Of a stretch of 64,000 bases of DNA, positions 4,117 through 17,556 are shown one piece after another. The translations under genes were made by a program, and so were the position numbers. The notes under the pieces were generated by a model. It worked only from the letters and a program-made list of their open reading frames with translations, was not told the DNA's origin and made no database searches. Every line of letters begins with the position of its first letter. Positions within the stretch are counted from its first letter, which is position 1. Location of the stretch: positions 682,001 through 746,000 of the forward strand of contig NZ_QMDV01000002.1 in NCBI RefSeq assembly GCF_003284895.1, given 5' to 3'. Source of the stretch: Pontibacter arcticus (GTDB lineage: Bacteria; Bacteroidota; Bacteroidia; Cytophagales; Hymenobacteraceae).

Positions 4117-5316
4117 ATGAAAAATAATAAAGTAGTGCTGGCTTTCAGCGGCGGTCTGGATACCTCTTACTGTGTGAAGCACCTGAAAATAGACAAAGGC
4201 CTGGAAGTGCACGCCGTACTGGTAAATACTGGTGGCTTTTCTGCGGAAGAGTTGCAAGAAGTTGAAAAACGCGCCTATGCGTTGGGCGTGGAAAGCTACG
4301 AAGCACTGGATGAAGTGGAGCATTACTACCAGAGCTGCATCAAATACTTGGTTTTCGGCAATATCCTGAAAAATAACACGTATCCGCTTTCGGTTAGTGC
4401 CGAGCGCATTACGCAGGCAATGGCAGTTGCAAAGTATGCCAAAAAGATTGACGCAGCTTATGTAGCGCATGGCAGCACTGGCGCAGGCAACGACCAGGTC
4501 CGATTTGATATGATCTTCAATATCATGATACCGGGAGTAGAAATCCTGACGCCGATTCGTGACAACCAGCTTTCACGCGAAGAGGAAATTGAATTCCTCA
4601 AAAAACATGGCGTGGAAATGGATTTTACCAAAGCCCAATATTCTATTAACAAAGGTATCTGGGGCACTTCGGTTGGCGGCAAAGAAACGTTGACGTCGCA
4701 CCAACCTTTGCCTGAAACTGCTTACCCGACGCAGGTTACAAAAGAGGGGCAGGAGCAGATTTCGCTTCAGTTTGAGCAAGGCGAACTGGTAGGAATTAAC
4801 GAGCAAAAATACGCATCTCCGGTGGCGGCTATCCAGGCGTTACAAGCAATCGCTGCTCCTTATGGCATTGGCCGCGATGTGCATGTTGGCGATACCATCA
4901 TTGGTATAAAAGGACGGGTTGGGTTTGAAGCGGCCGCCCCAATGGTCATCATAAAAGCGCATCATACCCTGGAAAAACACGTGCTCACCAAATGGCAACT
5001 TTACTGGAAAGAGCAACTGGCTACCTGGTACGGCAACTGGCTGCACGAAGGCCAGTTTATTGACCCTGTGATGCGCAACATCGAAGGTTTTCTGCAGGAA
5101 ACGCAGCAAAATGTAACAGGCACGGTGCATGTGCTATTGGCGCCTTACCGTTTCCAGGTGCAGGGCATCGAGTCTAAGTATGATCTGATGAGCAGCGCTT
5201 TCGGCAGCTACGGCGAAATGAACAATGGCTGGAGCGGCGAAGATGTAAAAGGATTCTCAAAGATATTTGGCAACCAGGCCATGTTGTACCACCAGGTAAA
5301 CGGAACGGAGTTTTAG
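4117..5316 (+). CDS. argG: Argininosuccinate synthase
   Basis: A 399-aa protein of normal family length. The N-terminal AFSGGLDTSYC is the PP-loop that binds ATP in N-type ATP pyrophosphatases, and YVAHGSTGAGNDQVRFD is the conserved argininosuccinate-synthase segment that handles citrulline and aspartate. It joins citrulline to aspartate with ATP, in the cytoplasm. It is the second gene of the arginine operon; the stop codon is followed after one base by the argC ATG, so the two are probably translationally coupled. Confidence 0.97.
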   Translation: MKNNKVVLAFSGGLDTSYCVKHLKIDKGLEVHAVLVNTGGFSAEELQEVEKRAYALGVESYEALDEVEHYYQSCIKYLVFGNILKNNTYPLSVSAERITQAMAVAKYAKKIDAAYVAHGSTGAGNDQVRFDMIFNIMIPGVEILTPIRDNQLSREEEIEFLKKHGVEMDFTKAQYSINKGIWGTSVGGKETLTSHQPLPETAYPTQVTKEGQEQISLQFEQGELVGINEQKYASPVAAIQALQAIAAPYGIGRDVHVGDTIIGIKGRVGFEAAAPMVIIKAHHTLEKHVLTKWQLYWKEQLATWYGNWLHEGQFIDPVMRNIEGFLQETQQNVTGTVHVLLAPYRFQVQGIESKYDLMSSAFGSYGEMNNGWSGEDVKGFSKIFGNQAMLYHQVNGTEF

Positions 5317-5317
5317 T

Positions 5318-6319
5318 ATGGCCACCCGCATGAAAGCCGGAATTATAGGCGCAGCCGGTTATGCTGGCGGAGAACTGGTGCGCCTGCTATTGCTGCACCC
5401 TTACGTTGAACTTGTTTTTGCACAAAGCAACAGCCAGGCAGAGCAGCCTATCACAAATACGCATACGGATCTGGTAGGTGAAACTACCTTAACGTTCAGT
5501 AGCGACATGACCGCAGAAGTGGATGTGCTGTTCTTATGTGCCGGACACGGCGCCGCCCGAAAGTTCCTGGAAACGACTTCAGTAGCAGCCACAACAAAGG
5601 TCATTGACCTGAGCCAGGATTTCCGTTGGAATGAGCAGACCTCAGAAAGTATAGTTACAACCGGAGAGAGAGCATTTGTGTACGGCTTACCGGAATTGCA
5701 ACGCGAAGAAATTAAAAAAGCGCAGCACATTGCTAACCCGGGTTGTTTTGCTACGGCTATCCAATTGGCTTTATTACCGTTGGCACAGGAAAGTATACTT
5801 ACCAGTGAAGTGCACGTTAGCGGCATAACAGGCAGCACCGGCGCAGGGCAGCAGCTCAGCGAAACCTCACATTTCAGCTGGCGCACCGAGAATATTTCGA
5901 CTTACAAAGTGATGCAGCACCAGCACCTGCATGAGATCAACAGAAGTATAAAACAGCTACAGCCTAATCAGCAACCAGCCATACATTTTGTTCCGTACCG
6001 CGGGCCGTTTGCGCGTGGTATTTTTATAACTGCCTATACTTCTTCAGACCTTACATTGGCTCAGGCTACTGAATTGTATCAAAGCTATTATGCGCAGCAT
6101 CCTTTTGTAATCATCAGCGCGCAAAACCCGGATCTGAAACAGGTGATCAACACAAACAAATGCATCCTTCATCTCCAGAAACACGGCGAGCAACTGGTGA
6201 TTACAAGTATGATCGATAACCTGCTGAAAGGCGCATCCGGCCAAGCCGTCCAGAATATGAACCTGCTGTTCAGGTTAGATGAAACAACGGGCTTAAAATT
6301 AAAACCGAGCGCTTTTTAG
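5318..6319 (+). CDS. argC: N-acetyl-gamma-glutamyl-phosphate reductase
   Basis: A 333-aa enzyme that reduces N-acetylglutamyl-phosphate to the semialdehyde with NADPH. GIIGAAGYAGGELVRLL (residues 8-24) is the Rossmann nucleotide-binding motif, and Cys143 in NPGCFATAIQ is the expected catalytic cysteine. TGSTGAGQQLS and HFVPYRGPFARGIF are further ArgC landmarks. The gene starts one base after argG. A 112-bp gap separates it from argD, wide enough for an internal promoter. Confidence 0.96.
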   Translation: MATRMKAGIIGAAGYAGGELVRLLLLHPYVELVFAQSNSQAEQPITNTHTDLVGETTLTFSSDMTAEVDVLFLCAGHGAARKFLETTSVAATTKVIDLSQDFRWNEQTSESIVTTGERAFVYGLPELQREEIKKAQHIANPGCFATAIQLALLPLAQESILTSEVHVSGITGSTGAGQQLSETSHFSWRTENISTYKVMQHQHLHEINRSIKQLQPNQQPAIHFVPYRGPFARGIFITAYTSSDLTLAQATELYQSYYAQHPFVIISAQNPDLKQVINTNKCILHLQKHGEQLVITSMIDNLLKGASGQAVQNMNLLFRLDETTGLKLKPSAF

Positions 6320-6431
6320 AAGCTTCAGACTTTATACTTCAGATAACTATAATACAACATCTTAGCAATCAACAATATGTACGTCAAATACTTTATTTAC
6401 TGTCTCACTTCATATATCTAATCCGAAAACT

Positions 6432-7577
6432 ATGAACCTGTTTGATGTTTACCCGCTGTTCGATATAGAACCCGTAAAAGCTGAAGGTCTCTACCTTTGG
6501 GACAAAGAAGGCAAAAAGTACCTCGATCTGTATGGCGGTCACGCTGTCATTTCCATCGGCCACAGCCACCCGCATTATCTCAAGCGCATTGCGCGCCAAC
6601 TCTATACCATCGGCTTTTACTCCAACGCTGTTCAGATGCCCTTACAGCAGGAACTGGCAGCTAAATTAGGCCAGCAGAGTGGCTACGATTCCTACCAGCT
6701 TTTCCTGTGCAACTCCGGCGCCGAAGCTAACGAGAACGCGTTCAAGATCGCTTCTTTTCATACAGGACGTAAGAAGATCATTTCATTTTCAGGTGCTTTC
6801 CATGGCCGCACATCTGCTGCGGTTGCCGCTACCGATGACGCTTCGATTTTAGCGCCGGTTAATGCAACTGAAAACATGGTTATACTTCCTTTTAACGATG
6901 AAGCTGCTTTTGCTGAGGCGTTAGCAAAGTATGGAGATGAGCTGGCTGCTGTGATTGTGGAAGGTATTCAGGGAGTAGCGGGTATACAATTGCCAGATGC
7001 TGCTTTTATGAAACAGGTAGCAGCGGGTTGCAAAAGAACAGGGGCTTTGCTGATTTTGGATGAGGTACAGTCAGGCTACGGGCGTACAGGTAAATTCTTT
7101 GCGCATCAGCATTTAAACATCAAACCGGACCTGATCACAGTTGCCAAAGGTATGGGCAATGGTTTTCCGGTAGCAGGTGTGCTCATCAGCCCTGAAATTG
7201 AAGCCAGACACGGCATGCTGGGCACTACATTTGGCGGCAATTACCTGGCGTGCGCTGCCAGCCTGGCGGTTCTGGAAGTAATGGAACAGCAAAATCTGGT
7301 ACAGAACGCAGCTGAGATGGGAGCGTATCTTATAAAGGAAATCCAGCAGATAGAAGGTGTAAAAGAAGTGCGCGGCCTTGGTCTGATGATCGGAATAGAG
7401 CTGTATGAACCATGCGCGGCCATCCGTCAGAAATTACTGAAAGAGCACCGCATTTTCACAGGTTCATCCTCCAATAAAAATACGCTTCGGTTGCTACCAG
7501 CCCTTTGCCTCGCCAAAGAAGAAGCGGACAAATTCCTGAAAGCCTTTACATCCATCCTTACAACGGTTCCTGCCTGA
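6432..7577 (+). CDS. argD: Acetylornithine (or succinylornithine) aminotransferase, PLP class III
   Basis: A 381-aa class-III aminotransferase. CNSGAEANENAFK (residues 93-105) binds the PLP phosphate, Asp210 in LILDEVQSGYGRTG contacts the pyridine nitrogen, and Lys239 in TVAKGMGNGFP is the PLP lysine. It converts the acetylated semialdehyde to N-acetylornithine with glutamate as donor. The stop TGA overlaps the next gene's ATG (TGATG), a translational-coupling arrangement. Confidence 0.95.
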   Translation: MNLFDVYPLFDIEPVKAEGLYLWDKEGKKYLDLYGGHAVISIGHSHPHYLKRIARQLYTIGFYSNAVQMPLQQELAAKLGQQSGYDSYQLFLCNSGAEANENAFKIASFHTGRKKIISFSGAFHGRTSAAVAATDDASILAPVNATENMVILPFNDEAAFAEALAKYGDELAAVIVEGIQGVAGIQLPDAAFMKQVAAGCKRTGALLILDEVQSGYGRTGKFFAHQHLNIKPDLITVAKGMGNGFPVAGVLISPEIEARHGMLGTTFGGNYLACAASLAVLEVMEQQNLVQNAAEMGAYLIKEIQQIEGVKEVRGLGLMIGIELYEPCAAIRQKLLKEHRIFTGSSSNKNTLRLLPALCLAKEEADKFLKAFTSILTTVPA

Positions 7578-8527
7578 TGAAACACTTTACTTCCGTACAC
7601 GATGTGCCCAACCTGGAAACACTTGTACAAGATGCGTTAGCGCTTAAAAAAGCTCCGTATCAGCATAAAACATTAGGTGAGAACAAAACGCTGGGCCTCA
7701 TTTTTATGAACCCAAGTTTGCGCACACGCCTGAGTACACAAAAGGCCGCCATGAATCTGGGCATGCAGGTAATGGTCATGAACCTGGATAAAGAAGGCTG
7801 GGCAATCGAAACCAAAGATGGCGTAATCATGAACGGCACGACGGTGGAGCACATCAAAGATGCGGCCGGTGCCATGGGCCAGTATTGCGATATCATCGGG
7901 TTGCGCTCGTTCCCGAAACTGCAAAGCCGCGAAGAAGATTATGCTGAAGAAATGCTGACAATGTTCAAGCAATACGCCGGCGTGCCTATCCTAAGCCTTG
8001 AATCTGCTACGCGGCACCCTTTGCAGAGCCTCGCCGACCTGATGACGATCCGGGAAAATGCGCCGCAAAACAAACGTCCCAAAGTAGTTTTAACCTGGGC
8101 GCCGCATATAAAACCAATTCCGCAATGTGTAGCCAATTCGTTTGCAGAGTGGATGGGTAATACCGATGTGGAACTTGTGATCACGCACCCGGAAGGCTAT
8201 GAACTAAGCGAGGAATTTACTGCTGGCGCAAGTATAGAATACAACCAGGACAAAGCGCTGGCGGATGCTGATTTTGTGTACGTTAAAAACTGGTCGTCTT
8301 ACCAGGACTATGGCAAAGTGCTGAGTGCGGGTGAAAACTGGATGATCACGAATGAGAAAATGGCGCTCACCAACAACGGAAAAGTTATGCATTGCCTGCC
8401 TGTAAGAAGAGGATTGGAATTGAGCTACGAAGTGCTCGATGGTCCGGATTCGCTGGTGATGAACCAGGCCGAAAACCGCCTGTATGCCGCACAAGCCGTC
8501 CTGAAATCCATACTTTCTGATCTGTAA
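7577..8527 (+). CDS. argF': N-acyl-ornithine carbamoyltransferase (acetyl- or succinylornithine type)
   Basis: A 316-aa carbamoyltransferase starting at the ATG that overlaps the argD stop. FMNPSLRTRLSTQKAA (about 43-58) is the carbamoyl-phosphate loop, with RTRLS in place of the classical STRTR, and ATRHPLQSLADL and MHCLPVRRG are further signatures. The overall pattern is that of the Bacteroidota enzymes which carbamoylate N-succinyl- or N-acetylornithine instead of ornithine. From memory of the Bacteroides fragilis succinylornithine enzyme, its selectivity proline (Pro90) aligns with Gly98 here. Presence of a separate ArgE supports deacylation after carbamoylation. The frame is open further upstream, but the longer start would lie inside argD. 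Confidence 0.9.
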   Translation: MKHFTSVHDVPNLETLVQDALALKKAPYQHKTLGENKTLGLIFMNPSLRTRLSTQKAAMNLGMQVMVMNLDKEGWAIETKDGVIMNGTTVEHIKDAAGAMGQYCDIIGLRSFPKLQSREEDYAEEMLTMFKQYAGVPILSLESATRHPLQSLADLMTIRENAPQNKRPKVVLTWAPHIKPIPQCVANSFAEWMGNTDVELVITHPEGYELSEEFTAGASIEYNQDKALADADFVYVKNWSSYQDYGKVLSAGENWMITNEKMALTNNGKVMHCLPVRRGLELSYEVLDGPDSLVMNQAENRLYAAQAVLKSILSDL

Positions 8528-8538
8528 CCTGGTTTGTG

Positions 8539-9336
8539 ATGGAAAAATTATATGTTATCAAAGTAGGTGGGAATATACTGGATGATCCGGAGCAACTCTC
8601 AAATTTCTTAACTGCTTTTGCCAGTATTTCAGGCTCTAAAATACTGGTGCACGGTGGAGGCAAAATTGCGTCTGCTATCGGTCGAAAGCTAGGAATTGAG
8701 CCCGTATTGGTTGACGGCCGCCGCATTACAGATGCGGAAACACTGGAGCTTGTAACGATGGTGTACGGTGGCCTGATCAACAAAAACCTGGTGGCTACGC
8801 TTCAGAAAAACGGTTGCAACGCAATCGGTTTAACAGGTCCGGACGCGAACATTATTCCGGCTGTAAAACGACCTGTACAAAGTATAGATTACGGTTTTGC
8901 CGGCGACATCACAAATCCTGAAAGTATAAACAGCGATGTATTGGAGGTTTTGCTGGATGCCGGTTTAACGCCCGTTTTTGCACCGCTCACACACGATGGC
9001 AAGGGTACCATGCTGAACACAAATGCTGATACAATTGCTGCTGCACTGGCTACCGCTTTGGCCCAAAAGTATGAAGTAGAGCTGCTTTATCTTTTCGAGA
9101 AAAAAGGCGTGCTACGCGATGTGATAAACGAAGATTCTGTCATTCCGAACATCACCGAAACAAAGTATGAGCAGCTGAAAAATGAAGGAATAATTGCGGC
9201 CGGCATGCTACCAAAACTGGACAATGCGATGCTGGCGCTCAGGCAGGGCGTAAAACAGGTTCATATCTGCCACGCATCCGCAGTAGAAGCGCTTGCACAG
9301 GGCCATAAGTTTACCGGAACAACTTTATCTCTTTAG
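8539..9336 (+). CDS. argB: Acetylglutamate kinase
   Basis: A 265-aa amino-acid kinase. The N-terminal KVGGNILDD and the HGGGKIASAIGRKLGIEP segment are the ATP and substrate glycine-rich loops, and MLNTNADTIAAALA is the usual nucleotide-binding region. It phosphorylates N-acetylglutamate, normally the feedback-controlled step. A GTG lies directly before the ATG; I chose the ATG at 8539. Eleven bases separate it from argF'. Confidence 0.95.
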   Translation: MEKLYVIKVGGNILDDPEQLSNFLTAFASISGSKILVHGGGKIASAIGRKLGIEPVLVDGRRITDAETLELVTMVYGGLINKNLVATLQKNGCNAIGLTGPDANIIPAVKRPVQSIDYGFAGDITNPESINSDVLEVLLDAGLTPVFAPLTHDGKGTMLNTNADTIAAALATALAQKYEVELLYLFEKKGVLRDVINEDSVIPNITETKYEQLKNEGIIAAGMLPKLDNAMLALRQGVKQVHICHASAVEALAQGHKFTGTTLSL

Positions 9337-9351
9337 CTTAAAAATACAAGC

Positions 9352-10437
9352 ATGTACCAGACCATCATCGAAACGGAAACGCTTTACAAACAAGCGGTTG
9401 CACTGCTACAGCAACTCATCGCCATTCCATCGTACAGCAAAGAAGAAGACGCAACTGCCACTGCCATTTATACTTTACTGGAGGCGCGTGGCGTAGCAGT
9501 TTACCGCCAGAAAAATAACGTTTGGGCACGTAACAAGCACTACAATGCAGCGCTGCCTACCTTGCTTTTAAACTCGCACCACGATACCGTAAAGCCAAAT
9601 GCCAGTTATACCCGCAACCCTTTCGAGGCAAGTATAACGGACGGTAAATTATACGGTTTGGGAAGTACCGATGCCGGTGCCAGCCTGGTGTCTTTAATCG
9701 CTACTTTTTTATACTTCTACGAGTCTGAAGACCTGACTTATAACCTGATATTAGCAGCCACTGCCGAAGAAGAAATATCAGGTAAAAACGGCCTGGAACT
9801 GCTTTACCCGGAGCTGGGCCAAATTGACGTTGCGATTGTAGGCGAACCCACCGAAATGCACCTGGCCGTAGCCGAAAAAGGCCTGCTGGTGCTGGACTGT
9901 GTAGCCGAAGGCAAAGCAGGACACGCAGCCCGCGAGGAAGGTATCAACGCCATTTACAACGCCCTGGACGATATAAGCTGGTTCCGGAATTATACTTTCC
10001 CAATCCAATCCGAGCATCTCGGCCCGATAAAAATGAGCGTGACATTAGTGAATGCCGGTACGCAGCATAATGTGGTGCCGGATGTTTGCCAGTTTACTGT
10101 AGATGTACGCCTGACCGATGCTTACACCGCAGAAGAGGTGCTGGAGATCATCCGCAAAAATGTGAAAGCCACTGTTACGCCGCGCTCAACCCGCCTGAAG
10201 CCGTCTTCTATCCCGGAAACGCACCCGTTGGTACAAGCTGGTCTGGCGCTTGGCCGAAATACGTATGGCTCGCCTACCACTTCAGATCAGGCATTGCTGC
10301 CCATTCCCTCGCTTAAAATGGGACCGGGCTTTTCAGGTCGTTCGCACATGGCCGACGAATTTATATACCTTGTCGAGATCGAGGACGGAATCCGCCTGTA
10401 CATCGAGTTATTGCAGCAGGTTATACTTCAGAAATAA
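9352..10437 (+). CDS. argE: Acetylornithine deacetylase-type M20 peptidase
   Basis: A 361-aa M20-family zinc hydrolase. LNSHHDTVKP (metal His/Asp), GLGSTDAGASLVSL (bridging Asp), ATAEEEISGKNG (catalytic Glu pair), VGEPTEMHLAVAEKG and GFSGRSHMADEF (final His) are seen in order. In this operon it should remove the acyl group from N-acylcitrulline or N-acylornithine; with an acylornithine carbamoyltransferase present, acylcitrulline is the more likely substrate. It sits 15 bases after argB and 36 before argH. Confidence 0.9.
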   Translation: MYQTIIETETLYKQAVALLQQLIAIPSYSKEEDATATAIYTLLEARGVAVYRQKNNVWARNKHYNAALPTLLLNSHHDTVKPNASYTRNPFEASITDGKLYGLGSTDAGASLVSLIATFLYFYESEDLTYNLILAATAEEEISGKNGLELLYPELGQIDVAIVGEPTEMHLAVAEKGLLVLDCVAEGKAGHAAREEGINAIYNALDDISWFRNYTFPIQSEHLGPIKMSVTLVNAGTQHNVVPDVCQFTVDVRLTDAYTAEEVLEIIRKNVKATVTPRSTRLKPSSIPETHPLVQAGLALGRNTYGSPTTSDQALLPIPSLKMGPGFSGRSHMADEFIYLVEIEDGIRLYIELLQQVILQK

Positions 10438-10473
10438 ACAGTCCATTTATACTTTAATTCCCCTTCACCAACC

Positions 10474-11805
10474 ATGAAACTCTGGCAAAAAGACACAAAC
10501 GTAGAAACAGAAATCGAGCAGTTTACTGTTGGCCGGGATCCGGAATTTGATTTACAACTGGCTGCCTTTGATGTGCTGGGCTCGCTGGCGCACACGCGTA
10601 TGCTGGAAAGTATAAACCTGCTCACTGAGGAAGAACTGGCGCTGGTACAAACCGGATTAAAGTCGATCTATGCAAGTATAAATGCCGGTACGTTTGCCAT
10701 TGAGCCGGGTGTGGAAGATGTGCATTCGCAGGTAGAGTTGGAGCTGACGCGCAAAGTAGGGGAGGCCGGCAAAAAGATTCACAGCGGACGCTCGCGCAAC
10801 GACCAGGTTCTGCTGGACCTTAAATTATACTTCCGCGATGAGTTAAAGAACACCGTAGAGCAGGTACAAACGCTTTTCGTCTTACTGCAAGCACAAAGCG
10901 AAACGTATAAAAATGTGCTGTTGCCGGGCTATACGCACTTGCAGGTAGCTATGCCCTCGTCGTTTGGTTTGTGGTTTGGCGCTTACGCCGAAAGCCTGGT
11001 GGATGATATGGAAATGCTGCTGGCTGCCTACAAGATCGTCGATAAAAATCCGTTGGGTTCTGCTGCAGGCTATGGTTCTTCCTTCCCGCTGAACCGCCAA
11101 CTTACCACCGATCTGCTGGGTTTTGAAAGTATGAATTACAACGTGGTGTATGCGCAGATGGGCCGCGGCAAATCAGAGAAAATTGTCAGTATGGCGCTTG
11201 CTTCGGTGGCGGCCACGCTGGCAAAAATGGCGATGGACCTGTGTTTGTATATGAGCCAGAATTTCGGTTTTGTGACGCTTCCTGCCAACTTAACAACGGG
11301 CTCCAGCATCATGCCACACAAAAAAAACCCGGATGTTTTTGAGCTGGTACGCGGAAAATGCAACAAACTGCAGGCCCTGCCCACTGAAGTTTCGATGTTG
11401 CTGATAAATTTGCCATCCGGTTACCACCGCGAGTTACAGCTATTAAAAGAATGCCTTTTCCCGGCTTTTGCGACGCTCTTGGATTGCCTCCAGATCATGG
11501 CCTTTATATTGCCGCAGTTGCAGGTAAAGCAGGATATTCTGAAAGACGAAAAGTATAAATACCTCTTTAGTGTGGATGCTGTAAATGCGCAGGTGCTGGC
11601 TGGTTTGCCGTTCCGGGATGCGTATAAAAAAGTAGGGGAAAGTATAGAAAACAACAGTTTCGAAGTGCCTGATGCCGTAACGCACACCCACGAAGGAAGT
11701 ATAAATAACCTATGCACAGATCAAATCAAGGTACAAATGGACAAGGTGATCAGCCAGTTCAACTTTGAAAAAGTAACGAAGGCTTATGAAGCTTTACTGG
11801 CTTAA
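10474..11805 (+). CDS. argH: Argininosuccinate lyase
   Basis: A 443-aa member of the fumarase/aspartase superfamily. HSGRSRNDQV (about residues 107-116) and the signature GSSIMPHKKNPD carry the active-site residues. It splits argininosuccinate into arginine and fumarate and is the last gene of the operon. Its TAA overlaps the stop of the convergent neighbour on the other strand. AGT-ATA (Ser-Ile) codon pairs occur four times in this gene, each part of the over-represented heptamer. Confidence 0.97.
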   Translation: MKLWQKDTNVETEIEQFTVGRDPEFDLQLAAFDVLGSLAHTRMLESINLLTEEELALVQTGLKSIYASINAGTFAIEPGVEDVHSQVELELTRKVGEAGKKIHSGRSRNDQVLLDLKLYFRDELKNTVEQVQTLFVLLQAQSETYKNVLLPGYTHLQVAMPSSFGLWFGAYAESLVDDMEMLLAAYKIVDKNPLGSAAGYGSSFPLNRQLTTDLLGFESMNYNVVYAQMGRGKSEKIVSMALASVAATLAKMAMDLCLYMSQNFGFVTLPANLTTGSSIMPHKKNPDVFELVRGKCNKLQALPTEVSMLLINLPSGYHRELQLLKECLFPAFATLLDCLQIMAFILPQLQVKQDILKDEKYKYLFSVDAVNAQVLAGLPFRDAYKKVGESIENNSFEVPDAVTHTHEGSINNLCTDQIKVQMDKVISQFNFEKVTKAYEALLA

Positions 11806-12500
11806 TTCCAGTGGAACTGCTGTGGTTTTATCTTTTTAATCTTGCGGTTAGTTTGCAACAAGGTAACGATCAGCAAAGCAATAATTACAGCCAACCCAAT
11901 AATCAGGTAAGACAATATCTGGAGCGTTTTAACCTGCTTTTCGGCGGAGGCATATAATACGTGCCCAACTTCGCCCTGCAGTTTGCTGAGCGCATGCAAC
12001 GGCTTTAATAAATCTAAAAAAGCGGTCTGGCTAGTGCCGTTGTAGTCGGCCAGCGCCGCTTCTTTATTTCCGGCACTACTTTGTACAAGTATGGCTTTTT
12101 GTAAAGTTTCCAGTTTTGTTTTGGTCAAGAGCAGCTCATCCAGGTCAAGCTTTTCCTGAGCGGTCAGTTCGGTTGCTTTAAACTTAGTCAGAACAGAATC
12201 AATATCGCTTGCATTCTGCGCCATTCCGTTTTCAAATGCTTGCATCTCATCGGTTTCGGATGTCAGGATATGTTCTTCCAGTAAAAGGCGGTTTTGGTAA
12301 AACCGTTCCTGTATGGTAGCAATATCCAGGGCGGGCACCAGCCTGTCGTAATACACCGATTTAAACTGCGATCCCACCTGGTTTACAGTGTAACTCACAA
12401 ACCAATAGGCCATTGTGATGAGTATAAAAGTAGCACCTAGTGCCAATGCGATTTTACTTCGTTGCTCAATCCTGAAACTCCAGCTCATAAACTCCCGCAA
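11802..12500 (-). CDS. Membrane-anchored four-helix-bundle sensor-like protein without output domain
   Basis: A 232-aa protein with a transmembrane helix at about 18-36, an extracytoplasmic helical region (about 40-190, rich in Leu, Glu, Gln and Lys), a second transmembrane helix at about 200-220 and a short basic tail (NRKIKKIKPQQ). The middle (SVYYDRLVPALDIATIQERFYQNRL) resembles the four-helix-bundle ligand-binding domain (4HB_MCP type) of chemoreceptors and sensor kinases. There is no HAMP, kinase or signalling domain. A second in-frame ATG lies four codons downstream of the first. The stop codon overlaps the argH stop. Confidence 0.7.
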   Translation of the reverse strand: MREFMSWSFRIEQRSKIALALGATFILITMAYWFVSYTVNQVGSQFKSVYYDRLVPALDIATIQERFYQNRLLLEEHILTSETDEMQAFENGMAQNASDIDSVLTKFKATELTAQEKLDLDELLLTKTKLETLQKAILVQSSAGNKEAALADYNGTSQTAFLDLLKPLHALSKLQGEVGHVLYASAEKQVKTLQILSYLIIGLAVIIALLIVTLLQTNRKIKKIKPQQFHWN

Positions 12501-12647
12501 TTGCTATTAAGCTCAATATAAGCAAAATTTTTAAAATTGTAAAGGCCTCGTATTGTGCACGTTCACTTCAGGCGTTGCAAATCGTATAACTTAAATAACC
12601 GGGCGCGTATAAAAGGGGCATTAATTGTTTTCAGAAGCTAATGCCAT

Positions 12648-13376
12648 TTGCCCGTGATTCCGATTAAAATTCATACCCAACCCGACGATTCGACCTGCGG
12701 CCCTACCAGCCTGCACGCCGTGTACCGCTATTTCAACGACCCGATCTCGCTGGCAGAAGTGATCAAGGAAGTCCCGGCGCTGGATGAAGGCGGAACACTG
12801 GAGGTTTTACTGGCTTGCCATGCCCTGAAACGCGGTTACCGGGCCACCATCTATACGTACAACCTGCACATTTTCGACCCGACCTGGATCGGGCTCAGCA
12901 ATGCCGCCATCATTGATAAACTGGAACAGCAGATTCTTTATAAAAAAGGCACCAAATTCCATCGGGCCACACATGCTTATATCGAGTTTCTGAGGTTAGG
13001 AGGCGAACTCCGCAGCCACGACCTGAACAACACCTTGCTGAGCCAGTATTTTGAGAAAGGCATTCCGTTACTGACAGGATTAAGCGCCACTTATTTATAC
13101 TTAAGCGCACGCGAGTTTTCTGATGATGCCGGCAATTCGGTGTACGATGATGTGCGTGGGTATCCGATGGGGCACTTTGTGGTGCTCTGCGGTTTTGCCG
13201 GAGACGAAGACCGCATTGTGGTGGCAGATCCGTACCCGGAAAATCCATACTTCCAGAACAATTATTATGAAGTAACTTCTACCCGGCTGCTGAATGCCAT
13301 CATGCTGGGCATGGCTACTTTTGATGCCAATCTGCTGGCCATAGAGCCGGCTCACCCTGAAATTCCCGAAGAATAG
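12648..13376 (+). CDS. C39-like cysteine peptidase, first gene of the ligase cassette
   Basis: About 242 aa. QPDDSTCGPTSLHAVYRYF places the nucleophile at Cys17 (counting from the TTG), followed by His176 in MGHFVVLCGF and Asp194 in VVADPYPENP, the Cys-His-Asp order of peptidase C39-like and papain-like enzymes. No ATG is available in frame: the frame opens after a TAA at 12639, and the candidates are TTG at 12648 or GTG at 12654. No signal peptide or ABC-transporter domain is present, so it is a free cytoplasmic enzyme. It lies 3 bases upstream of the RimK-like gene and is presumably co-transcribed with the next three genes. It may cleave or transfer peptides made by the downstream ligases; this is inference. 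Confidence 0.8.
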   Translation: MPVIPIKIHTQPDDSTCGPTSLHAVYRYFNDPISLAEVIKEVPALDEGGTLEVLLACHALKRGYRATIYTYNLHIFDPTWIGLSNAAIIDKLEQQILYKKGTKFHRATHAYIEFLRLGGELRSHDLNNTLLSQYFEKGIPLLTGLSATYLYLSAREFSDDAGNSVYDDVRGYPMGHFVVLCGFAGDEDRIVVADPYPENPYFQNNYYEVTSTRLLNAIMLGMATFDANLLAIEPAHPEIPEE

Positions 13377-13379
13377 ACC

Positions 13380-14849
13380 ATGCGAAAGATAGTTGTTGTC
13401 GATCATCCCAAAGACTGGGGTGTTGCGATAGATGAGGTAGAAGTGGTGGATGCGCAAACGTATTTAACCGATACAAACTACACTGATATTAAAACAGCGC
13501 GCATATTTAACCTTTGCCGCTCGTACCGCTACCAAAGTGCGGGGTATTATGTATCGTTACTGGCCGAAGCGCGCGGCCACAAAGCCATACCCAGCGTTAC
13601 CACCATGCAGGACCTGAAAAGCCCGACCATTGTGCGCGCCATTACTGTCGAGATCGAAGACCTGATCAAGAAAAGCCTGGCTACCATCAAGTCCAAAACA
13701 TTTACGCTAAGCATTTACTTTGGGCAGAACGTGGCCAAGAAGTATGAAAAGCTGTGCAAGGCCCTGCACGATCATTTTCAGGCACCGTTGCTGCGGGCGC
13801 AGTTTGTGTTTAAAGAAGAATGGGTGCTGCAAAGTATATCGGCTGTGCCCGTAAACGAAGTACCCGATCATCATTACAAATACCTGAAGCGCTTTGCCAA
13901 AGCATACGTGGCACGGCACCGTTTTGCGGGCGCACGCATCACGCGCAAAGTATACGACCTGGCGATACTCGTTGACCCAAAAGAAAAAGCCCCGCCCTCA
14001 AACGAAAAAGCAATCCAGCTTTTTGTGGAGGCCGCCGAAAGTATGGGATTCTATACTGAGCTGATCACCAAAGACGATTACCGCCGTTTGCCTGAGTTTG
14101 ATGCCCTTTTTATCCGGGAAACGACTTCTGTAAACCACCACACGTACCGTTTTGCGCGTAAGGCGTTTGCCGATGGTTTGGTAGTGATCGATGACCCGAC
14201 TTCCATACTTCGGTGCACAAACAAAGTATACTTAGCCGAACTTTTGACCAAAGCTAAAGTGCCCGTTCCTAAAACGATGATCATCCACAAAGATAACCGG
14301 GAGCAGGTAGAGGCAGAGCTGGGTTTGCCCTGCGTGCTTAAAAAGCCGGACAGTTCGTTCTCGCAGGGAGTTGTAAAAGCAAAAGATAAAAAATCGCTGA
14401 AAAAAGTGCTGGATGAAATGCTTGCTGATTCGGAGTTGGTGATCGGGCAGGAGTATACGCCCACCGATTTTGACTGGCGCATCGGTATTTTGGATAAGCA
14501 GCCGCTTTTTGCCTGCAAATATTACATGGCAAAAGGCCACTGGCAGATCTATAACTGGAACGGCAAAAAGCAGGACGAAGAAGGCGAAGATGAGATTGTA
14601 CCGTTCGAGCAGGTGCCGTTTCATGTGCTGCATACCGCTTTAAAAGCCGCCAACCTGATAGGCGACGGGCTTTACGGCGTAGACCTGAAAGAAATTAATG
14701 GCAAAGCCTATATCATCGAAGTGAACGATAACCCAAGTATAGATGCCGGTTGTGAAGACAAAATCCTGAAGAAAGACCTTTATACTTCCATTATCAAATC
14801 CATCAAGCGCCGCATCGAAACAAACAAAAACATCAGCACAAATGAATAA
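13380..14849 (+). CDS. RimK-type ATP-grasp ligase with N-terminal RLAN domain
   Basis: A 489-aa protein. Residues about 1-150 match the RimK-like ATP-grasp N-terminal (RLAN) domain, with the landmark IFNLCRSYRYQSAGYYVSLL. From about residue 190 comes a RimK-type ATP-grasp: LPCVLKKPDSSFSQGVVKAK binds the nucleotide, and Asp435 with Glu447-x-Asn449 in IIEVNDNPSID provides the Mg ligands. RimK enzymes join amino acids, often glutamate, to carboxyl groups of proteins, peptides or cofactors using ATP. The gene overlaps the next by 8 bases. The substrate is unknown; neighbours suggest a small peptide or amide. Confidence 0.88.
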   Translation: MRKIVVVDHPKDWGVAIDEVEVVDAQTYLTDTNYTDIKTARIFNLCRSYRYQSAGYYVSLLAEARGHKAIPSVTTMQDLKSPTIVRAITVEIEDLIKKSLATIKSKTFTLSIYFGQNVAKKYEKLCKALHDHFQAPLLRAQFVFKEEWVLQSISAVPVNEVPDHHYKYLKRFAKAYVARHRFAGARITRKVYDLAILVDPKEKAPPSNEKAIQLFVEAAESMGFYTELITKDDYRRLPEFDALFIRETTSVNHHTYRFARKAFADGLVVIDDPTSILRCTNKVYLAELLTKAKVPVPKTMIIHKDNREQVEAELGLPCVLKKPDSSFSQGVVKAKDKKSLKKVLDEMLADSELVIGQEYTPTDFDWRIGILDKQPLFACKYYMAKGHWQIYNWNGKKQDEEGEDEIVPFEQVPFHVLHTALKAANLIGDGLYGVDLKEINGKAYIIEVNDNPSIDAGCEDKILKKDLYTSIIKSIKRRIETNKNISTNE

Positions 14850-16101
14850 GCCGCACATAGAGCCGCTCCACCTTTTCGCAGGTTTTGGCGTGGAGATGGA
14901 ATACATGATCGTGAACCGCGATACGCTGGAAGTGCTCCCCATTACTGATAAACTGATTTACGACGAGGTAGGTGCATACGTATCGGATGTGGAGTTTGGT
15001 GAAATTGCCTGGAGCAACGAACTGGTGCTGCACGTAGTGGAGTTAAAAACACAGGGACCAGTACCAAGTATAACTGGTTTGCACGCCAGGTTTCAGGAGC
15101 ATGTAGTTAAAATAAATGGCATGCTGCAAAAGTATAACGCTATGCTTTTGCCCACCGGAGCGCACCCGTTCATGCACCCGGAAACCGATACCAGGCTCTG
15201 GCCACACGAGTATAACGCCGTGTACGAAGCTTACAACAAGATATTCGATTGCCGCGGACATGGTTGGGCAAACCTGCAAAGTACGCACCTTAACTTACCT
15301 TTTTACGATGATGAGGAGTTTGCAAAACTCCATGCCGCTATCCGGATGGTGTTGCCAATTATCCCGGCCATCAGTGCTTCATCGCCCATTTTGGATGGCA
15401 AAATAAGCGGCTACCAGGATATGCGTATAGAAGTTTACCGCCACAACCAGGAAAAAATACCGAGTATAGCAGGCAGTGTCATTCCGGAGGCAGTTTTTTC
15501 GAAGGCGGCTTACGAGCAGGAAATTCTGCAGCGCATGTATCAGGATATTGCACCTTTTGATGAGGCTGGCGACCTGCAGGAAGAATTTCTGAATTCAAGA
15601 GGAGCCATTGCCCGCTTCGAGCGCAACACCATCGAAATTCGCCTGATCGATATACAGGAAAGTCCACTGGCTGACCTTGCCGTGCTGAACGCCGTTGTAG
15701 CGGTTATAAAGGCTCTGGTAAGCGAGCGTTGGGTAAAGCTGGAGGAACTGAAGAAATGGGACGAGAAAACGCTGGCCGGTATACTGCTGGATGTAGTTAA
15801 AAACGGGCAGCAAACCATGCTGACCAACTATGATTACATGAAATGCTTTGGTTTTAACTGCATGGAGAATTGCACCGCCGGCGAAATCTGGAAACACCTG
15901 GTAGCAGAAACCCTTACATTGGAAGATGAACCGGAAATAGCCTTTGCACTGAATATCATACTTTCGAGGGGCAACTTAGCCAGGCGCATTTTGGAAGCAA
16001 CCGGCGCAAATCCATCCCCTGAAAGTATAAATAAAGTATACCATCAAGTAGCCAACTGCCTGCACAAAGGCGGAGTTTTTATACCTGAGAAACCATGCTA
16101 A
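14842..16101 (+). CDS. Glutamate-cysteine-ligase-type (GCS2) carboxylate-amine ligase
   Basis: A 419-aa protein. GFGVEMEYMIVN (about residues 14-25) holds the metal-binding acidic residues of the GCS2 family; MLLPTGAHPFMHP, WANLQSTHLNLPF and ERNTIEIRLIDIQESP are further GCS2 segments. The family condenses an amine with a gamma-carboxyl group at the cost of ATP, as in YbdK and plant-type glutamate-cysteine ligase. It overlaps the RimK-like gene by 8 bases and the next gene by 7, showing tight coupling. Ordinary glutathione synthesis is not suggested because no glutathione synthetase is next to it and the neighbour is RLAN-type. Confidence 0.85.
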   Translation: MNKPHIEPLHLFAGFGVEMEYMIVNRDTLEVLPITDKLIYDEVGAYVSDVEFGEIAWSNELVLHVVELKTQGPVPSITGLHARFQEHVVKINGMLQKYNAMLLPTGAHPFMHPETDTRLWPHEYNAVYEAYNKIFDCRGHGWANLQSTHLNLPFYDDEEFAKLHAAIRMVLPIIPAISASSPILDGKISGYQDMRIEVYRHNQEKIPSIAGSVIPEAVFSKAAYEQEILQRMYQDIAPFDEAGDLQEEFLNSRGAIARFERNTIEIRLIDIQESPLADLAVLNAVVAVIKALVSERWVKLEELKKWDEKTLAGILLDVVKNGQQTMLTNYDYMKCFGFNCMENCTAGEIWKHLVAETLTLEDEPEIAFALNIILSRGNLARRILEATGANPSPESINKVYHQVANCLHKGGVFIPEKPC

Positions 16102-16823
16102 AATTACTGTTAACCTGCGAGCACGGCGGCAACCAGATCCCAAGTGAGTATGCGTCTTTATTCAGCGGTGAAGAACCAATCTTAGCCACTCATAAGGGTT
16201 ATGACATTGGCGCTTTGGAACTCTTTAACAGGATGCAGGAGGTGGCCGATCACCACTATCATTCGGAAGTTTCGCGGCTTTTAGTAGAGCTGAACCGGTC
16301 CATTAACCATCATAATTTACTTTCCGGTTTCACGAAAGCACTTACGCCAAAAGAAAAGGAAAAACTGCTGGATACTTACTATTTTCCGTACAGGCATAAG
16401 GTCGAAAAAAAGGTAGACAAACTGGCAAGCGCCGGCCGTAAAGTGTTGCACATCGCTGTGCATACGTTTACACCCGTTCTGGATGGCGAAGAACGGCAGA
16501 CGGATATTGGTTTGCTTTATGACCCCAAACGAAAGCAGGAACAGGAAATCTGCAAAGTATGGCGCAGCAAAATGCTGGAGAAAGACAGTAACTTGCAGGT
16601 GCGTTTTAATTACCCATACTTAGGCGTGGCGGATGGGTTGCCCACAGCCTTGCGCCGGCAGTTCGGGGAGGATGAGTACTTGGGCATCGAATTGGAAGTA
16701 AACCAGAAATTTGCCCTCGGCGACCAGCAGGTATGGCAACAACTACAGGAAACGATTACATCAGCCTTACGAGAAGTTTTAAAACCACTGCGCGTAGATA
16801 ATGAGTACAGTGAATTGTTTTAA
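16095..16823 (+). CDS. N-formylglutamate amidohydrolase-like enzyme
   Basis: A 242-aa protein of the FGase superfamily. The start LLLTCEHGGNQIP matches the conserved CEHGGN segment, HIAVHTFTPVLDG carries the metal-ligand histidine, and RQTDIGLLYDP is typical. The known family reaction is hydrolysis of N-formylglutamate in histidine degradation, but no hut genes are here. As the last gene of the cassette it more likely hydrolyses an amide related to the products of the two ligases. A 139-bp gap follows. Confidence 0.85.
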   Translation: MLKLLLTCEHGGNQIPSEYASLFSGEEPILATHKGYDIGALELFNRMQEVADHHYHSEVSRLLVELNRSINHHNLLSGFTKALTPKEKEKLLDTYYFPYRHKVEKKVDKLASAGRKVLHIAVHTFTPVLDGEERQTDIGLLYDPKRKQEQEICKVWRSKMLEKDSNLQVRFNYPYLGVADGLPTALRRQFGEDEYLGIELEVNQKFALGDQQVWQQLQETITSALREVLKPLRVDNEYSELF

Positions 16824-16962: not shown

Positions 16963-17556
16963 ATGAAGATCAAAGGTTTACTTAAATTCGTGATGTTACT
17001 GGTGATCGGCCAGGTAATGTTTGCCTGTAATTCGGCTAAATATTATGAGTTTGCTGCAAACAAGCCTGAAGCTTATAACAAAGTAGCTCAGAAGCCTGCA
17101 CCGGTAGCAGAAGCCACTCCAACGATGACGGAAGTTGCCTTAGCAGCTGCAGATGAGAAAGCTGCTGCTGAAGAAGCTGCTCCGGCTTTGGAAGCCAGCA
17201 CTAAGCCAGCACCGGCTGTAAAAGCTGTTAAGCCGCTTGTTGTGCCAACTGCAGAGGCTGCTCCTGCAAAAGCCACTGTAACCGAAGCCGAAGCAATGGC
17301 CATGGTAAAAGAGAAAATGGCTACCATGACCAAATTCGAAAAGAAGGCCATGAAGAAGGAAATGAAAGAGGCACTTCGCCAGAGCGGTAGCGCTACTAAT
17401 GTAGTGGAAATCATCCTGGCCATTTTACTGCCGCCTTTGGCTGTATTCCTGCACGATGGCATCGGCACTTCGTTCTGGATCAATATCATCCTGACGCTGT
17501 TATTCTTCCTGCCAGGTATTATACATGCCTTACTGGTTGTAACAGATACGATCTAA
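16963..17556 (+). CDS. Lipoprotein with Ala/Glu-rich linker and C-terminal YqaE/Pmp3 membrane domain
   Basis: A 197-aa protein in three parts: a signal sequence ending in VMFAC with the lipid-modified Cys22, a low-complexity linker rich in Ala, Glu, Lys and Pro (about 40-135), and a C-terminal hydrophobic hairpin (VEIILAILLPPLAVFLHDG..., about 145-197) matching the small stress-induced YqaE/Pmp3 family. YqaE proteins are normally 50-60 aa on their own, so the added lipoprotein part is notable, though such forms are seen in Bacteroidota. It is a single-gene unit with a strong terminator at 17574-17607. Function is unknown, perhaps envelope stress. Confidence 0.8.
   Translation: MKIKGLLKFVMLLVIGQVMFACNSAKYYEFAANKPEAYNKVAQKPAPVAEATPTMTEVALAAADEKAAAEEAAPALEASTKPAPAVKAVKPLVVPTAEAAPAKATVTEAEAMAMVKEKMATMTKFEKKAMKKEMKEALRQSGSATNVVEIILAILLPPLAVFLHDGIGTSFWINIILTLLFFLPGIIHALLVVTDTI

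Follow-up and report, generated by a model that had tools for sequence, protein, structure and literature searches.

The four adjacent genes at positions 12648-16823 of the Pontibacter arcticus DNA analyzed here (64,000 nucleotides, referred to as the window) encode two ligases and two hydrolases, a unit that is kept across at least seven phyla and hence must be of value. We propose that this cassette serves to make and recycle, within the cytoplasm, a small peptide that is N-capped and probably contains glutamate, a reading to which we give about an even chance. The association of the genes is itself not chance, as their arrangement is repeated in many phyla.

All four genes lie on the plus strand of a 3.77 Mb genome. 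The first encodes a C39-like (papain-like) cysteine peptidase of 242 amino acids (12648-13376), followed by an RLAN-RimK ATP-grasp ligase (13380-14849), a GCS2-type carboxylate-amine ligase that belongs to a subfamily of its own (14842-16101) and an FGase-family (N-formylglutamate amidohydrolase-like) hydrolase (16095-16823). Checking the open reading frames returned the coordinates of the initial annotation and its spacings of 3, -8 and -7 bases between the co-directional genes. The peptidase frame as given starts with TTG at 12648; since its homologues, when aligned, open with MIPIKIH, the GTG at 12654 appears to be the likelier start. As no signal peptide is evident by eye in any of the four proteins, we assume that the pathway operates in the cytoplasm. 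In the intergenic space preceding the operon (12501-12647) promoter-like sites are no more frequent than in shuffled sequence. Upstream of the cassette and divergently oriented is an orphan sensor (11802-12500, minus strand), a protein of 232 amino acids that carries the 4HB_MCP_1 chemoreceptor sensory domain only and transmembrane helices, without a signalling domain. Directly 3' of the cassette a gene on the plus strand (16963-17556) encodes a lipoprotein-like, Ala/Lys/Glu-rich protein with a C-terminal Pmp3-type membrane domain, which shows no conservation with the cassette. Just 5' of the cassette, a run of genes that look like arginine-biosynthesis genes, apparently argG to argH, occupies 4117-11805 of the plus strand; a tie between these genes and the cassette was rejected, since clustering of the neighbourhoods showed that the pairing is not conserved in other loci. 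Clustering of all neighbouring genes across the loci yielded no fifth conserved gene, only the four families being conserved.

The Pfam assignments of all four proteins exceed the curated cut-offs, and the active sites were examined in alignments of 30-35 diverse relatives from many phyla per family. The peptidase matches Peptidase_C39_2 (PF13529) with 31.6 bits compared to a cut-off of 24, its profile finds C39 peptidases with solved structures, and the catalytic set Q11, C17, H176 and D194 of a C39-type cysteine peptidase is invariant in 32 relatives. In the RLAN-RimK ligase an RLAN domain (PF14401, 164 bits; residues 25-169, 13452-13886, contig C2:695452-695886, plus strand) precedes a RimK-type ATP-grasp domain (PF08443, 46 bits; residues 281-475, 14220-14804, plus strand) with intact metal residues, and K282, K321, D365, R367, D435, E447 and N449 of the ATP-grasp site are invariant among the aligned RLAN-RimK relatives. 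The GCS2 protein (PF04107, 99 bits) combines this domain with a GCS fold that matches YbdK and GCL and with a catalytic core; its invariant residues are E18, E20, N59, E60, H149, N151, R195, E265, R267 and D270, and E18, E20, R195, E265, R267 and D270 align with YbdK. The last protein (PF05013, 81 bits), whose nearest solved structure is 2odf, carries E9, H10, H119, H123, R134, E199 and E201 as invariant residues of the FGase family. Judged by these residues, all four enzymes look catalytically alive. The intact Cys-His-Asp peptidase, the two ligases and the FGase-like hydrolase described in the initial annotation are thus borne out by the Pfam matches and the invariant residues, and the loss of ATP/Mg residues that it had considered for either ligase has not occurred, as both ligases keep them.

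The structure model of GCS2 (pLDDT 93) has YbdK as its best structural match (1tt4/1r8g, TM 0.68/0.79), followed by plant GCL and bacterial GshA and then by PafA and Dop. In the RLAN-RimK model (pLDDT 85) it is the ATP-grasp part only that matches LysX, ArgX, RimK and D-Ala-D-Ala ligases, while the RLAN part has no known-structure counterpart among the matches listed. The ATP-grasp domain and its Mg ligands are common to RimK, LysX, ArgX and RLAN-RimK; the latter is set apart by the RLAN domain, some 150 additional residues at its N-terminus. That the RLAN gene might be a plain RimK acting on ribosomal S6 had been raised in the initial annotation and was ruled out: the S6-ligase model scores it at 34.3 bits compared to a cut-off of 331, the same genome carries a separate RimK-type gene (302 amino acids, 209 bits), and the C-terminus of the host S6, ...KQAKKEEVKA, is neither Glu-rich nor terminated by Glu-Glu. 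The rimK_fam model likewise gives 66.7 bits compared to a cut-off of 143. The cassette GCS2 shares with YbdK and the plant-type glutamate-cysteine ligases (PF04107) the fold, the GxExE strand, R195 and the ExR..D motif, and yet it is only 13-14% identical to YbdK, is about 60 residues longer and falls far under all NCBIfam equivalog cut-offs, the best glutamate-cysteine ligase/YbdK score being 58.8 bits, obtained with the YbdK-type model, compared to a cut-off of 371. Also unlike YbdK, this subfamily always adjoins RLAN-RimK in the Bacteroidota sample described below.

A protein search of one-per-species genomes detected 80 loci. The best RLAN-RimK matches are those of Pontibacter, with 81-86% identity across the ligase, and the order C39, RLAN-RimK, GCS2, FGase is shared by the full set of 35 Pontibacter loci and by 36 loci of other organisms, which span several phyla. 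Incomplete loci lack FGase only (n=17), C39 only (n=13) or both (n=5), some of them being cut by contig ends. RLAN-RimK together with GCS2 occurs in Bacteroidota, Ignavibacteriota (Melioribacter), Fibrobacterota, Planctomycetota, Nitrospirota, Thermodesulfobacteriota and some Pseudomonadota (Thiobacillus). On a 9 kb record of Legionella adelaidensis labelled as a plasmid (L247, NZ_LR134436.1, 41-3232) RLAN-RimK, GCS2 and FGase are found, and one Planctomycetota genome (L243, genome G658) carries a very divergent cassette of C39, RLAN-RimK and GCS2 whose branch measures 2.4 changes per site. Further GCS2 matches next to Pseudomonadota RLAN genes were discarded as an artefact, since the first 211 positions of the profile consisted of out-of-frame RLAN translations.

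The initial annotation had called for the co-occurrence of the four genes in other genomes, and this was found both across phyla and in a sample of 248 Bacteroidota genomes. RLAN is present in 32 of the 248. At a threshold of over 250 bits, the GCS2 subfamily was detected in 23, all of them RLAN-positive (23/23) and with GCS2 adjacent to RLAN. The C39 subfamily is found in 20 genomes, all within the 23 that carry GCS2, and is absent from three Flavobacteriaceae-type genomes; the FGase subfamily is found in 18, namely 16 of the 23 cassette genomes and two RLAN-free genomes. Under independence, the probabilities of these overlaps for GCS2, C39 and FGase are about 1e-25, 1e-26 and 1e-17, values that are too small since the genomes are related, although the trend itself is clear. 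The divergence of the four cassette proteins is correlated, indicating that they travel together. The ligase pair is the core of the cassette, C39 is usual, and FGase is common yet dispensable; ligases that are always present and hydrolases that are often missing are what one would expect if synthesis is the core function and breakdown an accessory one. Of three Adhaeribacter genomes searched, two have FGase unlinked to the cassette, with a gene for an S66 LD-carboxypeptidase before it (L250 2949-4668, L251 3039-4710), and the third yielded no FGase.

What is new here is that a GNAT takes the place of GCS2 beside, or fused to, other RLAN-RimK genes. In Pseudomonadota, RLAN-RimK genes adjoin a GNAT-C39 (DUF3335) protein, and in some Bacteroidota RLAN-RimK is fused to GNAT, in both cases without GCS2 or FGase. 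The flanks of the GCS2 loci gave no GNAT match and no locus carries both GCS2 and GNAT, while the GCS2, C39 and FGase subfamilies are absent genome-wide from the GNAT-fusion Bacteroidota tested (G143, G159, G187, G223, G061 and G089). These sister systems share with the cassette the RLAN-RimK family, in which the ATP-grasp residues of the cassette enzyme are over 95% conserved among GNAT-type relatives, and a C39-like peptidase neighbour; they differ from it in having GNAT for GCS2, in carrying no FGase-family gene and, fusions excepted, in falling outside the main GCS2-associated clade. Eight GNAT-type Pseudomonadota loci (L198, L199, L202, L203, L205, L209, L215 and L219) also carry DUF2817, which we take to be a metallopeptidase-like family and which is perhaps the counterpart of FGase in such loci; as a general partner it was rejected, being found in these eight only.

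In the tree, the GCS2-type ligases fall almost all into one clade (SH-aLRT 100), with 5 label changes compared to 40 in shuffles. This pattern is broken by L243, a Planctomycetota row on a long branch, and by six GNAT fusions placed inside the clade or adjacent to it. The tree favours nesting of the fusions among the GCS2 rows, as none of 200 bootstrap trees separates the two; the AU test does not reject a tree that keeps the GCS2 rows together apart from the fusions (p 0.157), and the nesting of the fusions is not significant. Either GNAT would have replaced GCS2 once, or the exchange would have gone the other way, from GNAT to GCS2, the fusions having branched off early. Under both directions GCS2 and GNAT look like alternatives for one step. 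As the two are mutually exclusive and both can cap an amino group, we infer that they are alternative amine caps, gamma-glutamyl in the case of GCS2 and acetyl in the case of GNAT.

In the pathway that we propose, GCS2 would use ATP to activate the side-chain carboxylate of glutamate and couple it to another compound through the amino group of the latter. RLAN-RimK, again at the expense of ATP, would join a further amino acid to a carboxylate of the GCS2 product, and the C39-like peptidase and the FGase-family hydrolase would hydrolyse the amide bonds, with release or recycling as the outcome. In the sister systems GNAT would act in place of GCS2, the cap being acetyl rather than gamma-glutamyl. 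The substrates, the order of the steps and the direction of the hydrolases are what we infer. Glutamate is proposed because it is common to the glutamate-cysteine ligase, RimK and N-formylglutamate amidohydrolase families: LysX, ArgX and RimK act on glutamate or aminoadipate, and the FGase family is named for N-formylglutamate. The structural likeness of GCS2 to YbdK and the glutamate-cysteine ligases, and of the ATP-grasp part to LysX, ArgX and RimK, argues for a small peptide, as do the conserved gene order, the co-occurrence and correlated divergence of the four proteins, the mutual exclusion of GCS2 and GNAT and the lack of a conserved precursor-peptide gene. The absence of FGase from 7 of the 23 cassette genomes, its presence in the two RLAN-free genomes, the absence of C39 from Flavobacteriaceae and the lack of significance for the nesting of the fusions count against it. 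The suggestion of the initial annotation that the ligases assemble a small peptide or an amide, which the hydrolases trim or recycle, agrees with all the observations and is refined in two respects, in that the hydrolases are often absent and that a sister system swaps GCS2 for GNAT. On a wider scale, and more tentatively, RLAN-RimK might be the core of widespread unrecognised N-capped peptide metabolites with a modular cap, either acetyl from GNAT or gamma-glutamyl from a dedicated GCS2, the cassette being responsible for making and recycling the gamma-glutamyl kind in Bacteroidota, Planctomycetota and further phyla.

Rather than building a small peptide, RLAN-RimK and GCS2 could act on a target protein by adding amino acids to it, as a tag or as a modification of its end, with the two hydrolases removing them. 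RimK modifies S6 and LysX and ArgX act on a carrier protein, and these are the structures matched by the ATP-grasp part; the GCS2 model has PafA and Dop among its structural matches, and the peptidase resembles protein-cutting C39 enzymes. The RLAN part, which has no known-structure match among those listed, could bind a protein, and given the kinship of the modelled GCS2 fold with the Pup ligase PafA and with Dop, GCS2 too might act on a protein. Nevertheless, neighbour clustering found no gene for a tag or carrier protein conserved beside the cassette, so that a small tag protein encoded nearby, as in pupylation-like tagging, is lacking; the GCS2 model fits YbdK and the glutamate-cysteine ligases far better than PafA (E 1e-14 vs 1e-5), and the S6 end and the separate RimK gene speak against tagging as well. 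We therefore regard modification of a protein as unlikely.

A glutathione-like thiol, in which GCS2 would form gamma-glutamylcysteine and RLAN-RimK would extend it as a glutathione synthetase, has a lower probability still. The pairing of GCS2 with an ATP-grasp enzyme mirrors the logic of GshA and GshB, and glutathione synthetase is a weak profile match, yet the GCS2 lies far under every glutamate-cysteine ligase cut-off. Moreover, BshC, which completes bacillithiol synthesis, is present in 23 of 23 cassette genomes and in 26 of 26 comparison genomes. Given its presence in all cassette hosts tested, no thiol is replaced there, and replacement of bacillithiol was rejected, as all 49 genomes checked have BshC, cassette or not.

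We consider it very improbable that the enzymes serve murein salvage, in which intracellular murein peptides would be cut and ligated anew. Murein recycling typically involves amidases, peptidases and ligases that join amino acids with ATP, and the unlinked FGase of two Adhaeribacter species follows the S66 gene mentioned above; this neighbour, however, is confined to one genus, elsewhere no murein gene is conserved by the cassette, and the two RLAN-free FGase genomes are without such a neighbour. A ribosomal peptide of the graspetide type, modified by an ATP-grasp ligase and released from its leader by the C39 peptidase, is hardly credible, for although clusters of this kind contain C39 peptidases and ATP-grasp ligases (PMC8939145), here there is no transporter, the C39 is not fused to an ABC transporter, the gene gaps (at most 3 bases) are too small for a precursor inside the operon of the window, and no conserved small ORF lies within 700 bases upstream in 14 relatives.

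Nor does the cassette correspond to a named system. A C39 peptidase of a bacteriocin exporter does not fit a stand-alone protein of 242 amino acids with no linked exporter or precursor conserved. A role in histidine degradation was rejected by the score of the FGase protein in the HutG model (17.3 bits, cut-off 279), and so was a function in anti-phage defence or in phages, as the PADLOC models matched none of the four proteins and the PHROGs (phage) library gave only a weak RimK match. The NAGGN (N-acetylglutaminylglutamine amide) osmolyte pathway combines an acetyltransferase, an ATP-grasp ligase and a peptidase to make an N-capped dipeptide, and the GNAT sister systems resemble it in logic. 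The cassette differs from it in that no asparagine-synthetase-like gene is conserved nearby and the GCS2 form is without an acetyltransferase.

The initial annotation had presented the cassette as an undescribed system. A search of the literature library used here found no paper on the cassette or its product, which upholds this in part, yet the RLAN domain and amidoligase neighbourhoods were reportedly treated by Iyer and colleagues in 2009. The systems in that work are said to be gene clusters that combine ligases and peptidases with acyl enzymes and for which no product is known, a kind that the cassette resembles. We therefore count it among these predicted amidoligase neighbourhoods as a further variant. 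The cassette is compact, self-contained and to all appearance cytoplasmic, and the exchange of GCS2 for GNAT offers a testable chemistry rule for the whole family of 'RimK-like' genes, whose present annotation as glutamate ligases lacks evidence.

Two other observations concern ligases of related type. A Pseudomonas aeruginosa RLAN-RimK gene (L246, NZ_CP133752.1) has no GNAT or C39 neighbour and lies near a glutamate/aspartate transporter and pagP. By gene order, PA1345 is putatively the RLAN gene of P. aeruginosa. Its control by Cpx was rejected, as for PA1345 a Cpx motif is predicted only, with no signal in DAP-seq (PMC12802237). The genome of the window itself holds two frames of about 878 amino acids with RimK-type ATP-grasp matches (L255, C2:71568; L256, C2:480487), which by their size are perhaps cyanophycin-synthetase-like.
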